NCBI GenBank assembly: GCA_027451985.1
Contig: DAIDHS010000002.1
Span: forward strand, 1 to 64,000
Direction of reading: 5' to 3'
DNA: 64,000 nucleotides
DNA from: Elusimicrobiota bacterium
GTDB lineage: Bacteria > Elusimicrobiota > Elusimicrobia > UBA1565 > UBA9628
The notes under the pieces are model-generated. The model was given only the letters and a program-made list of their open reading frames with translations, was not told the DNA's origin and ran no database searches. A program made the position numbers and the translations under genes. Below are positions 33,931 to 40,748 of the stretch, piece by piece (positions within the stretch are counted from its first letter, which is position 1; every line of letters starts with the position of its first letter).

Positions 33931-35490
33931 TTATCCTATCCTCTCGCTGGGAATTGATTGAACCACGGCGACGCGGGCGCTGGGCGCATAAATCGACGCA
34001 AAGCCGCCCAGGCCGCCCGAACTGCCCGTGCCGCTCATGGCGCCCGACTGCATGTAGGCGCCCATCGCGGCGACGATGGCGCCGACGCCGGCGTATTTGG
34101 CGATCTTCGTGAGGAGACTGCTGGGGCTCTTCTCTTGCGATCCCAAAGCCATCGCAATCGCGCTGGCCGCGACGAGTCCGCCCGACAAAGTCAGCATCGA
34201 ACCGACCGCCTGCTGGCCGCCCGAGCCGATGGACGCGCCCAGCGTCACCACGATAATGCCCAGCAACGCCGCGATGCTGGCCAACACCGTCGCCATCGTA
34301 GAGACCACGGTGAAGCTCTTCGTTAATTTATTCGCGATGTAAATCAGCACGGCCGCGGCAAAAATCATCATCATGGCTTCATTGAGCATCCCCTGCCAGG
34401 GCGCCGCATTGCTTCCCGCCTGCGGCGTGGGCGGCGCGCCGAACTGATTGCTGCCGGCCGAGCCGCCGTTGGTGGGGCCGTTGGCGTTGCCCGCGCCCGA
34501 ACCGGAGCCCGTTCCGCTCCCGCCGGTGGAAACGCCCGCAGCTCCGCCGATGGGCGTGCCGCCGCTGACGCCCCCGGTATCGTAACGGCTGGCGCCTCCG
34601 CCGTAGCCCGGGTTGGTCATCTCGCCGTTGACCTGCCGGGCTTGGCCCACGGCGCCGTTTAAGCCCAGGCCTTGCAGGCCGCTCTTGGCCAAGGAGGCCA
34701 GACTGTGCGTCGCGCCGAAGCCCGTAGTCTGCGCGGCCTTGCGGCCGGGCGAAGACGCCGCGCCGGCCTTGGGCGTAAACGACGCGCCCGAGCCGCCGCC
34801 GGCCACGCGCCAGGACCCGGACTTAAATCCATTGTCGTTCAAGGTGGGGATGCCGCGCACCGTGCTCCCGGCACCGCCCCCAGACGCGCCCGCGGACCCC
34901 GCGGCCGCCACTCGGCCCGCCGCCGCTCGGCCCGCCGCCGCTCCGGCTTTGGCCCCGGCGGCTTGAGCCATCGCCGCTCTCGCCGCGGCGGGATTGGCCG
35001 CGCGCAGGCTCGCCAGCGAATCTTCGGTTTGGCCCGCGCCGGCCGCCTGCGCCGAAGCGCCGCCGGCTCCCACGGCGCCCGCTTTTTGCGCGGCCGGCGC
35101 CGCGAAAGGCCAAAACGAATGCGCGCCCGGAGCCCCCGGCGCCGCGTGCATCGCCTTGTAGCCCAAAAATCCCACGCCGCCCGCCAAGGCGCTGCCGCCC
35201 ACGGCCAAGGCGATGATGCCCGCCTTGGTGGCCATGACCCCGCCGCCGAATCCCAGGCGCGAGAGGCTTTCCAAAAATCCCTCGCCGCCGGCCCCCGCGG
35301 CTCCGGGCGCTGGCGCGCCTGTCGAAAGAGCGTCCGGGACGGCTTGGCCTCCGGCCTCGACCGCGTCCACCCCCGCCTCGTCGATCACCGGGTTGCGGCC
35401 CAAAAGCGAGGCGAGCCCGCTCCAGAATCCGGAGGGCTTTTTCTCCTCCTTGTTCACGTCCGGCCTAATGTCGGGTTTGGGAAGGTCCAT
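33931..35490 (-). CDS. Gly/Ala-rich membrane protein B, same architecture as protein A
   Basis: MDLPKPDIRPDVNKEEKKPSGFWSGLASLLG...TKAGIIALAVGGSALAGGVGFLGY; long linker; C-terminal TM helices (MMMIFAAAVLIYIANKL, ASIAALLGIIVVTLGASIG...). Confidence 0.65.
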   Translation of the reverse strand: MDLPKPDIRPDVNKEEKKPSGFWSGLASLLGRNPVIDEAGVDAVEAGGQAVPDALSTGAPAPGAAGAGGEGFLESLSRLGFGGGVMATKAGIIALAVGGSALAGGVGFLGYKAMHAAPGAPGAHSFWPFAAPAAQKAGAVGAGGASAQAAGAGQTEDSLASLRAANPAAARAAMAQAAGAKAGAAAGRAAAGRVAAAGSAGASGGGAGSTVRGIPTLNDNGFKSGSWRVAGGGSGASFTPKAGAASSPGRKAAQTTGFGATHSLASLAKSGLQGLGLNGAVGQARQVNGEMTNPGYGGGASRYDTGGVSGGTPIGGAAGVSTGGSGTGSGSGAGNANGPTNGGSAGSNQFGAPPTPQAGSNAAPWQGMLNEAMMMIFAAAVLIYIANKLTKSFTVVSTMATVLASIAALLGIIVVTLGASIGSGGQQAVGSMLTLSGGLVAASAIAMALGSQEKSPSSLLTKIAKYAGVGAIVAAMGAYMQSGAMSGTGSSGGLGGFASIYAPSARVAVVQSIPSERIG

Positions 35491-36541: not shown

Positions 36542-38266
36542 TTAACCGACGTCGGGCTTAGGCGAATCCAAGGACGCCGGGAGAGCCGGCGGCTCATCGG
36601 CAGGCGCGGGCGCGGAAGGCGGCATCTGCGGCGGCGGCGCAGCCGAGGCCGCCAGCGGCTTGCCCGGCTTGCCGTATTCCTTGAAGATGGCCGCGATCTC
36701 GTCGTAGTCGAGCTCGTCGCGGGCCTGGAGTTCCGCCGCGAAGCGCTCCACGATGGGCCAATCGGTCTTCAGGGTGCGCTCGACCTCGGTCATGGAGTCC
36801 TGCAGCAGCTTCTGGGTCATGGCGTTCAACTTCTGCTTCAAGTCGTCCGAAAGCTGATCAGCCGGAATGCGGGTGAAATCCCCCACGAAGCCGTTCTCGC
36901 CCATGCCCAAGCGCCAGACCATGTCGTGCGCGATGGTCATGGCGTTGGCGAAGTCCGAGGAAACGCCGTCGGTGGTCACGCCGTACTTGATGCGCTCGGA
37001 GACGTAGCCCGCCAGCGCCACCTTGATGTGCGCCTTCAAGGTACGCGAGTCGGAGCTGTACATTTCCTCGCGCGGAATCGAGTGCACCACGCCCAGCGTG
37101 CCGCCGCGCTGAATGATGGAAGCCTTGAACACGTCGTTGGTCGGGTGGGTCAGGTAGAGCACCACCAGGTGTCCGCCTTCGTGGAACGCCGTCATCTCGC
37201 GCTCTTTGGCGGTCATGTTCAAGCGGTGCGCCACGCCGAGCTCGATGCGCTCGATGGCGGCCGAGATGTCCTTGTAGGAAACGGCCTCGCGTTTTTCGCG
37301 CGTGGCGATGACCGCGGCTTCCTTTAGGATGTTCTCGATTTCGGCCGGCGTCTTGTAGACCGACTTGCGCGCTAGGCGCGCCAAATCCACGGAGGGGTCC
37401 ATGCGGATGCGCTTGGCGTAGTACTCGAAAATCTCCTGGCGCTCCTGCAAATTCGGCCGGCCGATGGTGATCGTGCGGTCAAAGCGCCCGGGGCGCAGGA
37501 GCGCGGGGTCGAGGACGTCTCTCTGCGCGTTCATCGCGCCGATGACCACGATGTTGGCCTGGGTGTCCGCGAGGCCGTCCATCTCGACCAGCAGCTGGTT
37601 CAAAGTCTGGTTGCCCTCGGAGGAGCCGCCGAAAGCGTCGTGGAACACGCGCTGGCGGCCCAGCACCTCGATTTCATCGACGAAGATGATGCAGGCCCCG
37701 TAGGCCTGGGAATACTGCCGGGCCTGCTTGAAGAGCTTCCGGACGCGCGACGCGCCCACGCCCACGAAAATCTCCACGAACTCGGAGCCCGAAGTGGACA
37801 AGAAGGGCACGCCCGCCTCGCTCGCGATGGCCTTGGCCAGCATGGTCTTTCCGCAGCCGGGAGGGCCGATCATCAAAAGGCCGTGGATGATTTTGCCGCC
37901 CACGCGCTTTAAGACCGCGCGGTCCTTGATGAGTTGAACGACCTCCCAGGCCTCCCGCTTGGCCTCGTCCAGGCCCATGACGTCCGAGAAGCGCACCTTC
38001 ACGTTCTCGGCCGAGACCTTGGACTTCCTAAAGCGCGCGAAGCCGCCGCCGTACTCGACGATGTACAAGAGGCCCACGAAAATGACGGTCTGGAGGATGC
38101 CCCAGGGCAGCGAGGCGACGTTGATGCCGATGATGTAGCGGCGCACGCTTTCTTCCATGCCCGCCAGGTACCACAGCGGCAGGACGAAGGCCACCAGGCC
38201 GCCGATGATGCCGACGACCCAGAGCCAGTAGCGCTGCCAGAAAAGCCTTAGTTTAGCCCAGAACAT
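36542..38266 (-). CDS. FtsH-like membrane AAA+ zinc metalloprotease
   Basis: [22 protein letters not shown], pore [17 protein letters not shown], Walker [36 protein letters not shown]. Two N-terminal TMs with only a short loop. Confidence 0.92.
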
Positions 38267-38343: not shown

Positions 38344-38883
38344 CTAGCCGCCGCCGCCCGGGCCGCCGTTTTGCGCCGCGTTCTGCGCGCCGCCGGAGCC
38401 GGGCAGCACGAATTGGATGGGCCTGTCGCGGTTAGGCACGTATTTGATGACCTTGAAGGTCAGCCCCGGCGACTTGTACATCCAGCCGATCTGGAGGACC
38501 GGGCCGGTCTTGACCGTGAGCGTCACCTCCTGCCAGACCTCGGTGCGCAGGATGTCTAAATTGGCCGAGGCCAGGTTCAAGAAGCCCTTCAATTGCCCGT
38601 TGTTGAAGCCCAGATAGTCCATCACGTCGTTGCGGATGTCGGCCTTCAAAAGGTTGTCGTCGCTCACGTAGGCGACGTTGCGGTGGGATTCCAGCTCCCA
38701 GCGCGTGGCCGCGTAATAGGAGGCGATTTCCATCTTCTGCACGAGAATCAGAAGCGCGAAAATCTTGGCGAAGGCGAAGAGGAAGAACATGAAGATGGGC
38801 AGCAGGAGCACGGTCTCCAAAGTCGCCTGGCCGCGGGAACGGCGGGAACGGAAGGGAGCGAAAGGGAACCGACGGCGGGCCAC
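38344..38883 (-). CDS. TadE-like pseudopilin
   Basis: SRGQATLETVLLLPIFMFFLFAFAKIFALL matches the TadE motif. The ORF-track start (38988) runs into antisense of the four-helix-bundle ORF, so GTG 38883 is preferred. Confidence 0.7.
   Translation of the reverse strand: MARRRFPFAPFRSRRSRGQATLETVLLLPIFMFFLFAFAKIFALLILVQKMEIASYYAATRWELESHRNVAYVSDDNLLKADIRNDVMDYLGFNNGQLKGFLNLASANLDILRTEVWQEVTLTVKTGPVLQIGWMYKSPGLTFKVIKYVPNRDRPIQFVLPGSGGAQNAAQNGGPGGGG
38834..38879. repeat. GGGAACGG-type degenerate repeat, left flank
   Basis: gcgggaacggcgggaacggaagggagcgaaagggaaccgacggcgg. Confidence 0.6.
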
Positions 38884-38898
38884 GTTCGTAAGCTTGGG

Positions 38899-39273
38899 AT
38901 GGGCATCCACGGCAAGCTGCGGGTTCTGGACATGGGCCGCGCCTTGACGCTCGATGTCTACCGGTACAGCCGGAATTTTCCCAATCATGAGCTCTATGGG
39001 CTAACCTCTCAAATCCGCAGAGCAGCCGTCTCCGTTCCGGCCAACATCGCGGAAGGCTCCGGCCGCCGGGGCGACGGCGAACTCCTCCATTCTCTTTCCA
39101 TCGCGTCGGGAAGCTTGGCCGAGTTGCGGACGCTGGCGAGCCTGGCCCATGAACTGGGCTACCTGCCGGCAGCGGCCTACAAAGTCATCCTGGACGAAGC
39201 CGAACAATTGGCTATATCGCTCAACGCGCTGATTGCCGCAAGGAAACGGAAGGAAACGGGAAGAAACGGATGA
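38899..39273 (+). CDS. Four-helix-bundle protein (S23 / 23S rRNA intervening-sequence protein family)
   Basis: ALTLDVYRYSRNFPNHELYGLTSQIRRAAVSVPANIAEGSGRRGDGELLHSLSIASGSLAELRTLASLAHELGYL is the family's hallmark pattern. The only plus-strand gene in the pilus block. Confidence 0.8.
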   Translation: MGIHGKLRVLDMGRALTLDVYRYSRNFPNHELYGLTSQIRRAAVSVPANIAEGSGRRGDGELLHSLSIASGSLAELRTLASLAHELGYLPAAAYKVILDEAEQLAISLNALIAARKRKETGRNG

Positions 39274-39376
39274 GACGGAAGGGAACGAAATGAAACAAAA
39301 AGAGGAAAAGCCGGCGCACGCGCCCCTTTCCGTTCCCTTCTTTTCCTTTCCGTTCCCTTCCGTTCCCTTCTCTCTC
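39238..39376. repeat. Purine-rich tract followed by complementary pyrimidine-rich tract (GGAAACGG / CCGTTCCCTT units), right flank
   Basis: aaggaaacggaaggaaacgggaagaaacgg... then cctttccgttcccttcttttcctttccgttcccttccgttcccttc. Confidence 0.65.
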
Positions 39377-40661
39377 ACGGGTATTCCCTCGTCTGGAAAT
39401 GCGGCGTGGGGCAGGGCCAGACGCTGGCCGAGCCGTCGGTCTCGCCGGTGCAGTCCGAGCCCCCGCCGGTCATGCCCATCCACAGCGCGATGCGCGAGTG
39501 CACCTCCGGAAGGCCGGGACCCATGATTTGGTCGAAGTTCACATTGAAATAGTTGGTGGGAGGCTGCCAGTGCACGGTCACCGGCCAGCCGCCGCCGTCG
39601 GCCTGGCCCAGCGGGTTGCGGTCGTCCATGGTCTCCAGCTCCTGCGGGTCCACGGTGACCAGCTGGAAGAGCCCGTTGCAGTTGGGAATGTTGCTGGGCA
39701 TCGACATCGGCGGGCTGCTGCATTCCGGCATGGGCATGCTGCCGATGAGCTCGTGCTGGAACGCGTTTCCGCAATAGCCGACCTTGGGCGCGCATTCGAA
39801 ATGGACGGCGTTCATGAACGAGCCCGCGTATTGATTGAACGAGGAGCTCAAGAGTTGGGATTCATTGAGCGCGTTGGGCCCGCCGGCGTTGAGCCAGTAG
39901 GATTTGGCCAGGAAGTCGTGATTGGAGGCCAGCCGCTGCAGGACGGAGTACTGCGCCCCCTCCACCGAGCCCAGCAGCTGGTAGACCTGGGTATAGAGGC
40001 CGTAGATGGTGGAAAAATCGCTGTACTGCACGTCCCAGTACTCCGCGGCGCGCAGGCGGAAGAGCACCAGCGTGTCCTGGCTCCAAGGAGGCGGAGGGCT
40101 ACCGTTGCCCGGGTTGTCGTCCGGCGTCGGGCCCGGGATGTTCGGATCCCAATCGCTGTTCTTGCGCGTCCCGATGCCGCCGTAGCCGATGTCCCAAGTG
40201 CCCTCGTCATGGCTGTAATCGGCGGTCTCCTGCGTGGTGGGATGGCAGGTCGGATCCATGGACGAGCTTCCGCCCGACTCGTGCAGGCTGCGCGGGAAAA
40301 TGCCCTCCTGGTACAAGACATCGTACCAGGGCGAAGTGCCCGGGCACGCGGTTCCCGGACCCCCGCAGACCGCGTCCGTGCGTCCGCCGCAGTCGATGGG
40401 CTGATCCTGGAACACCTCCTGGAAAATGCGCATGGGAAACGCCCCGTTGACGTAGGCCGAGCGGTTGAGGAAGTCCGAGTAGTTGGTCATCTCGACGAAG
40501 GCCGCGGCGTCGATGGCGAACTGGTGGCGGATTTTTTCCTGCGAGAGCTTGGCCGTCTCGTAGATGAGCCAGACGAAGAGCATCAAAGACGGGAAAATGA
40601 AAAGCGCCGGAATTAAAATCTGTCCCCTCCGGCCGATCCGGGCCCCGCGTTTTAAGCTCAT
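39375..40661 (-). CDS. TadG-like/Flp-associated pseudopilin-like protein
   Basis: MSLKRGARIGRRGQILIPALFIFPSLMLFVWLIYETAKLSQEKIRHQFAIDAAAF. Confidence 0.65.
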   Translation of the reverse strand: MSLKRGARIGRRGQILIPALFIFPSLMLFVWLIYETAKLSQEKIRHQFAIDAAAFVEMTNYSDFLNRSAYVNGAFPMRIFQEVFQDQPIDCGGRTDAVCGGPGTACPGTSPWYDVLYQEGIFPRSLHESGGSSSMDPTCHPTTQETADYSHDEGTWDIGYGGIGTRKNSDWDPNIPGPTPDDNPGNGSPPPPWSQDTLVLFRLRAAEYWDVQYSDFSTIYGLYTQVYQLLGSVEGAQYSVLQRLASNHDFLAKSYWLNAGGPNALNESQLLSSSFNQYAGSFMNAVHFECAPKVGYCGNAFQHELIGSMPMPECSSPPMSMPSNIPNCNGLFQLVTVDPQELETMDDRNPLGQADGGGWPVTVHWQPPTNYFNVNFDQIMGPGLPEVHSRIALWMGMTGGGSDCTGETDGSASVWPCPTPHFQTREYP

Positions 40662-40748
40662 GAATTCGACGGGCAAAAGCCCTTGTATATATAGCCCGGC
40701 CGGGCGGGCAATGCAAGGTAAAAAATGTTAAAAATCGCCGCCGGGGGG

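Follow-up and report, generated by a model that had tools for sequence, protein, structure and literature searches.

A lone S23 gene between inverted word arrays at a TadG/TadE-like junction resembles a very small kind of selfish DNA

In the 64,000-nucleotide stretch of DNA analyzed here (the window), two inverted arrays of GGGAACGGAAG words enclose an S23 ORF and lie exactly between the stop of a TadG-like gene and the start of a TadE-like gene. This unit probably belongs to a class of tiny selfish elements that is widespread, in which an S23 gene sits between inverted word arrays in an arrangement comparable to that of RAYTs and REPINs. S23 proteins are already known from intervening sequences (IVS) of 23S rRNA, which have complementary ends, in Coxiella and Leptospira (PMC4990558), and heptamer arrays have been described in Xanthomonas (GGGAATC) and Nostoc (GGGGA[C/T]T) (PMC4692102); what appears to be new is the link between S23 and the words. 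Among open-access papers, preprints apart, we found none that links S23 to inverted word arrays or that deals with lineage-specific words. The S23 unit seems to be a very small form of selfish DNA not described before.

The S23 ORF (124 aa) occupies positions 38899 to 39273 on the plus strand. To its left lies a purine-rich array of GGGAACGG and AAGGG words (38834 to 38870, plus strand), which reads GGGAACGGCGGGAACGGAAGGG..., and to its right lies the reverse complement of the word array (39326 to 39374, minus strand; CCGTTCCCTTC on the plus strand). An inner purine array of AAGGAAACGG words (39240 to 39298, plus strand), in the same sense as the left arm, overlaps the 3' end of the ORF. The right arm terminates directly at the TGA (39375 to 39377) of the minus-strand TadG-like gene (39375 to 40676), and on the other side is the TadE-like gene (38344 to 38883, minus strand), delimited by its translation and by alignment with the relative G001. 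A preliminary description of this DNA had proposed GGAACG-type repeats on both sides of the ORF, complementary on the right and starting at the stop of the upstream gene, in a unit inserted antisense between these two genes; all of this is borne out, with the neighbors' names resting on sequence motifs (GQATLETVLLLP in the case of TadE), as Pfam and NCBIfam profiles gave no match for either. Alignment of the left arm with the inverted right arm scored 23.5, compared with a maximum of 21 in 2000 composition shuffles and a 99th percentile of 19.5 for pseudo-genes at other places in the window. In predicted RNA folds of both strands, the arms pair as a closing stem around the ORF (z of -1.75 and -2.14). 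The genome to which the window belongs (G000) has this one S23 gene and a single additional array of these words, which is ORF-less and lies between tgt-like and queA-like genes (names from reading the sequence). Elsewhere in the window, an FtsH-like AAA protease gene (36542 to 38266, minus strand; 447 bits against an NCBIfam FtsH cut-off of 600) lies inside the block of pilin-like genes, and a 15-nt tandem repeat, GCCGCCGCTCGGCCC (34904 to 34943; 2.7 copies, 96% match), lies inside a minus-strand alanine/glycine-rich ORF.

The protein belongs to the S23/IVP family, as first suggested, on the basis of profile scores above the cut-offs of both PF05635 (E 1.6e-31; 109.1 bits against 33.8) and TIGR02436 (E 3.8e-30; 104.3 bits against 24) together with a four-helix AlphaFold model (mean pLDDT 94.9). 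S23 proteins are widespread and structurally solved, and their function is not known. Foldseek ranked XCC0516 (2gsc), which is from Xanthomonas campestris, as the best structural match, followed by BT_0352 (2rld) and then by DGR Avd, a part of the DGR ribonucleoprotein. Avd has the same fold as S23 (TM about 0.8) plus a weak sequence match. A reverse transcriptase beside the Avd-like gene, as in a DGR, is missing here, since no PF00078 match was found in the genomes G000 and G001, or in G116 and G125. Because these four genomes carry one to nine S23 copies each, a reverse transcriptase was ruled out as the partner of S23, and a resident one is therefore not required.

The TadG/TadE junction could be resolved in 54 relatives, in which the gap was taken as the distance between the TadG-like stop and the GQATxE motif conserved in the TadE-like gene. 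The relatives belong to the Elusimicrobia; L141, the named record of the element of G065, comes from an Elusimicrobia MAG. The empty sites that the preliminary description had suggested looking for are the rule: the gap is 8 to 100 nt in 44 genomes (50 nt or less in 29 of them), and in the short gaps the stop and start codons often overlap. Only 10 genomes have gaps above 100 nt, and eight of these contain word arrays. Four carry S23, namely G000 (542 nt) and G001 (572 nt), both with an antisense S23 and GGGAACGG words, G065 (437 nt, sense S23, GGGATGA words), and G078 (458 nt, sense S23, GACGCGGA words). The other four have ORF-less convergent arrays in gaps of 125 to 265 nt: G025 (GGCAACGGAAAG), G094 (GGGATGAG), G073 (GGCGACAGAGGCC), and G071 (GTGGTCAAG). 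The remaining two long gaps (G051 and G062) are without clear word arrays. Among the 156 elements compared, the best matches to the ORF-less arrays of G094 and G073 were the S23 arms of their own genomes; in G025 and G071, no S23 gene was found. Of the same-genus genomes G000 and G001, the latter has a left arm that exceeds the other by 30 nt (three units), and the frame of the TadE-like gene is kept. Presence in all relatives at one uniform length, which would have spoken against mobility, is therefore not the pattern observed; repeat copies occur both with and without the ORF, and the earlier reading of a non-rRNA selfish unit with GGAACG-array ends is strengthened. Read from these alignments, the S23 unit is a true insertion, and the eight array-bearing junctions apparently represent seven independent events (G000 and G001 counting as one), because both the words and the orientation of S23 differ between genomes. 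No clean target-site duplication was found, since the repeats cover the ends of the element. The same junction also harbors GGGGACTGTCCCC-type hairpins in G018 (L172) and G022 (L179) and a long perfect inverted repeat or hairpin in G003 (L170); the site is therefore generally permissive.

Inverted arms are common around S23 genes at large. At 181 S23 loci (57 belonging to the class, 75 to named genomes spanning about 25 phyla, and 49 to viral contigs), the left flank was matched to the inverted right flank, with same-size pseudo-genes placed off target in the same loci as controls. The match exceeded the 95th percentile of controls at 152 loci and the 99th at 125 (45 of 57 in the class, 46 of 75 in the multi-phylum set, and 34 of 49 in the viral set), and nulls made across elements agreed with this excess. 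Direct matches above the 99th percentile were far rarer (6, 14, and 3, respectively). In the same flank test, the Avd-type genes that adjoin a reverse transcriptase in relatives mostly lacked arms, unlike the S23 elements. The G-rich arm is the 5' arm in 41 of 48 class elements and 51 of 59 multi-phylum elements; the arms being inverted, this applies whichever strand is read. Stop codons are commoner in left than in right arms (100 vs 40 elements); as a reason for purine-first arms this asymmetry was set aside, since composition explains most of it. Annotated plasmids also carry S23 with the same anatomy inside operons. On cyanobacterial plasmids (L331, L332, and L329), S23 separates cas10 from cmr3, cas6 from cas4, and one ribonucleotide reductase subunit gene from the other (Nostoc). 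In four genomes of one family (L013, L015, L016, and L020), S23 with different words adjoins what appear, from their translations, to be subunit genes of a xanthine-dehydrogenase-type operon. At L253 (G018:C62:1400-3100, about 620 to 1080), two clusters of AACGG-type arrays lie on either side of a small ORF that is not S23 and runs on the opposite strand; the left cluster is mainly forward and includes one inverted unit. The product of this ORF, a coiled-coil protein, is CCDC90-like (PF07798, E 7e-7, short of the curated cut-off). The ORF was considered as a second cargo and rejected, as a family search of relatives gave weak, scattered matches only.

GGAACG is the word of this one element only: S23 elements generally have inverted arrays, and the word varies by lineage. 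Across 107 elements, S23 pairs below 60% identity have a baseline word similarity (about 0.20), whereas pairs at 70 to 80% identity reach 0.48 and pairs above 80% reach 0.73; different S23 lineages within one genome stay at baseline. In a permutation test with 156 elements, in which the arms were permuted and pairs with homologous flanks removed, the 472 S23 pairs of at least 60% identity had a word similarity of 0.342, compared with 0.218 +/- 0.008 after permutation (0 of 2000 permutations reached the observed value). Shared words can cross phyla, as exemplified by GGCTGAAG-like words common to L125 (Pelagicoccus), L142 (Deltaproteobacteria), and L148 and by TCAGCNNTCAGC, common to L081 (Abditibacteriaceae) and L098 (Methylobacillus). 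Viral contigs contain a KLRAFELAD lineage with AGGCTGTAG and a LEVWKLAHQ lineage with TATCGGC. From these comparisons, the words differ by element in a manner that tracks the S23 protein lineage rather than host or site. The cognate signal is a correlation, and co-inheritance of the gene with its flanks could yield it.

The words also occur dispersed and without an ORF, mostly in carrier genomes. The S23 elements of G094, G117, and G065 carry the word GGGATGAGGGATGAGG (GGGATGA), which occurs in these genomes 210, 39, and 36 times, respectively, and in any other genome no more than six times, so that the three carriers account for 285 of about 303 matches in 147 genomes. Likewise, GAGTGCTGAGTGCTGAG (GAGTGCT) is found 51 times in its carrier G073 and at most once elsewhere, and CAAGTCACARGTCACA (CAAGTCACA) has counts of 162 in G116, 106 in G117, and 95 in G125, three of its four carriers, with reversed-pattern controls at 0 to 1. 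Some cases count against a coupling of words and S23: G124 has the cognate S23 and no dispersed CAAGTCACA arrays, and G094 and G102 have 30 to 35 CAAGTCACA arrays each, with no close cognate S23 found. In G025, an AACGG array family is dispersed mostly as convergent pairs, and no S23 was found in this 80% complete genome. The dispersed arrays of G125 mostly run in a single direction and are not paired; hairpins are therefore not required everywhere. No two S23 genes within one genome are more than 70% identical, while the words are multicopy. RAYT genes are single-copy per lineage and REPINs many, and the S23 gene is likewise single-copy per lineage with many words. The likeness to RAYT/REPIN systems thus lies in one protein gene per lineage per genome, many gene-less cognate repeats, and covariation of protein and repeat (PMC3116915, PMC8266576); dispersed protein-less cognate repeats occur in relatives, and the window's genome has its one ORF-less array. 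In contrast to the IS200-like TnpA-REP proteins and their REP palindromes, S23 is a four-helix bundle with no Y1 tyrosine transposase (no transposase profile matched, and S23 is the sole ORF of the element), and its repeats are tandem words of 7 to 10 nt in inverted arrays, where REPs are single palindromes.

Such a distribution could also arise if S23 were a nucleic-acid-binding regulator, with the adjacent arrays as its operator (autoregulation), the dispersed arrays as regulon sites at the ends and starts of genes, and the unit spread by horizontal transfer rather than by moving itself. The co-segregation of words and protein, the position of arrays at operon junctions, the inner arm that abuts the S23 start, and the action of Avd, the structural neighbor of S23, in a ribonucleoprotein would all fit this explanation, and dispersed TAACTGA arrays have been proposed to act in regulation (MacGregor, PMC4679880). 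However, the TadG/TadE junction has arrays in some relatives and none in others, with unrelated words from genome to genome, which resembles insertion more than a conserved regulon, and hardly any word family extends beyond a single genome. We therefore consider a regulator unlikely.

Quite improbable is the explanation that slippage at intergenic junctions made the arrays as ordinary simple-sequence expansions, with arms kept alike by quasi-palindrome correction and S23 as a passenger. Array length does change in whole units between G000 and G001, and the heptamer arrays of Xanthomonas and Nostoc, some of them in convergent pairs, are known examples of such repeats (PMC4692102). Nevertheless, slippage leaves unexplained the inverted arrays around 125 of the 181 S23 genes, the near-restriction of dispersed words to carrier genomes, and the match between word and lineage across non-homologous sites, where a coupling of protein and word already holds. 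The known heptamer arrays share with the S23 arrays the short G-rich tandem words at gene junctions and, in Xanthomonas, the convergent inverted pairs; they differ in that no protein partner was described for the repeats in Xanthomonas or Nostoc (PMC4692102).

Very improbable, finally, is a stray copy of a 23S rRNA IVS, in which the element would be a hairpin, RNase III would cut its arms once it is transcribed, and S23 would be, as usual, a passenger that is not expressed: the shared S23/IVP protein, the length of about 0.4 to 0.6 kb, the sporadic occurrence and presumed selfishness, and the complementary ends that form a stem (in the window, arms closing around the ORF on either strand; in the Coxiella IVS, bordering sequences excised by RNase III) are likenesses (PMC4990558), but the window element lies between two protein genes rather than inside an rRNA gene, elements of its type occupy operon junctions, Rfam found no rRNA at 15 further loci (mostly poorly armed, for which an rRNA origin was thereby rejected), and an rRNA origin accounts neither for arms made of lineage-specific word arrays nor for the dispersal of ORF-less copies.

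Under the selfish-element explanation that we favor, S23 would form a pentameric ring like DGR Avd that recognizes its own words and lets word-bearing hairpins be copied in trans, and one S23 gene per lineage would sustain a population of ORF-less arrays, as one RAYT does its REPINs. We infer the binding of words by S23 from the insertion, the co-segregation of protein and words, the dispersal of words in carriers, and the kinship with Avd. The protein lacks a recognizable nuclease or transposase domain, and reverse transcriptase is absent from the host genome; our preferred, though rather doubtful, suggestion is therefore that copying falls to host replication or repair, by template switching at S23-held hairpins, with slippage lengthening the arrays, as would fit the longer left arm of G001. 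A wider proposal is possible, and we hold it tentatively: S23 may be the specificity factor of an undescribed, cross-phylum class of mobile DNA, a pentameric ring without a known transposase domain that reads lineage-specific words of 7 to 10 nt and sustains both its own element and ORF-less arrays, with the rRNA IVS as a special case that landed in rRNA and the heptamers of Xanthomonas and Nostoc as footprints. Arrays of short words in bacterial genomes have so far been described without a known maker, and the coupling of S23 and words connects them to S23. If S23 binds its own words, orphan proteins and orphan repeats would explain each other, and a kind of mobile DNA without a recognized transposase would open to experiment.

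The left array of the window element encodes, on the opposite strand, the N-terminal leader (MARRRFPFAPFRSRRSRGQATLE) of the TadE-like protein, whose proposed start, a GTG at 38883, lies inside the element. When window positions 38881 to 39273 are compared with L161, the S23 core of 264 nt shows two non-synonymous differences between G000 and G001 and not one synonymous difference, the TadE-like gene next to it has a dS of 0.21, and the C-terminal end of S23 and the inner array have diverged strongly; recent recombination of the S23 core would account for this mosaic. In eight elements of the class (L012, L014, L025, L031, L060, L074, L076, and L078), no stop codon interrupts the S23 frame as it crosses the right array into the gene downstream, and the resulting in-frame fusions include TadE in G065 and G078. 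In several fusions, the part encoded by the array looks like a secreted protein's signal peptide, SLVLSLIPLSLIPLSLAHA in L014 being one example. S23 elements in this way rewrite host genes, the right-hand array encoding the N-terminus of the downstream protein in several cases.
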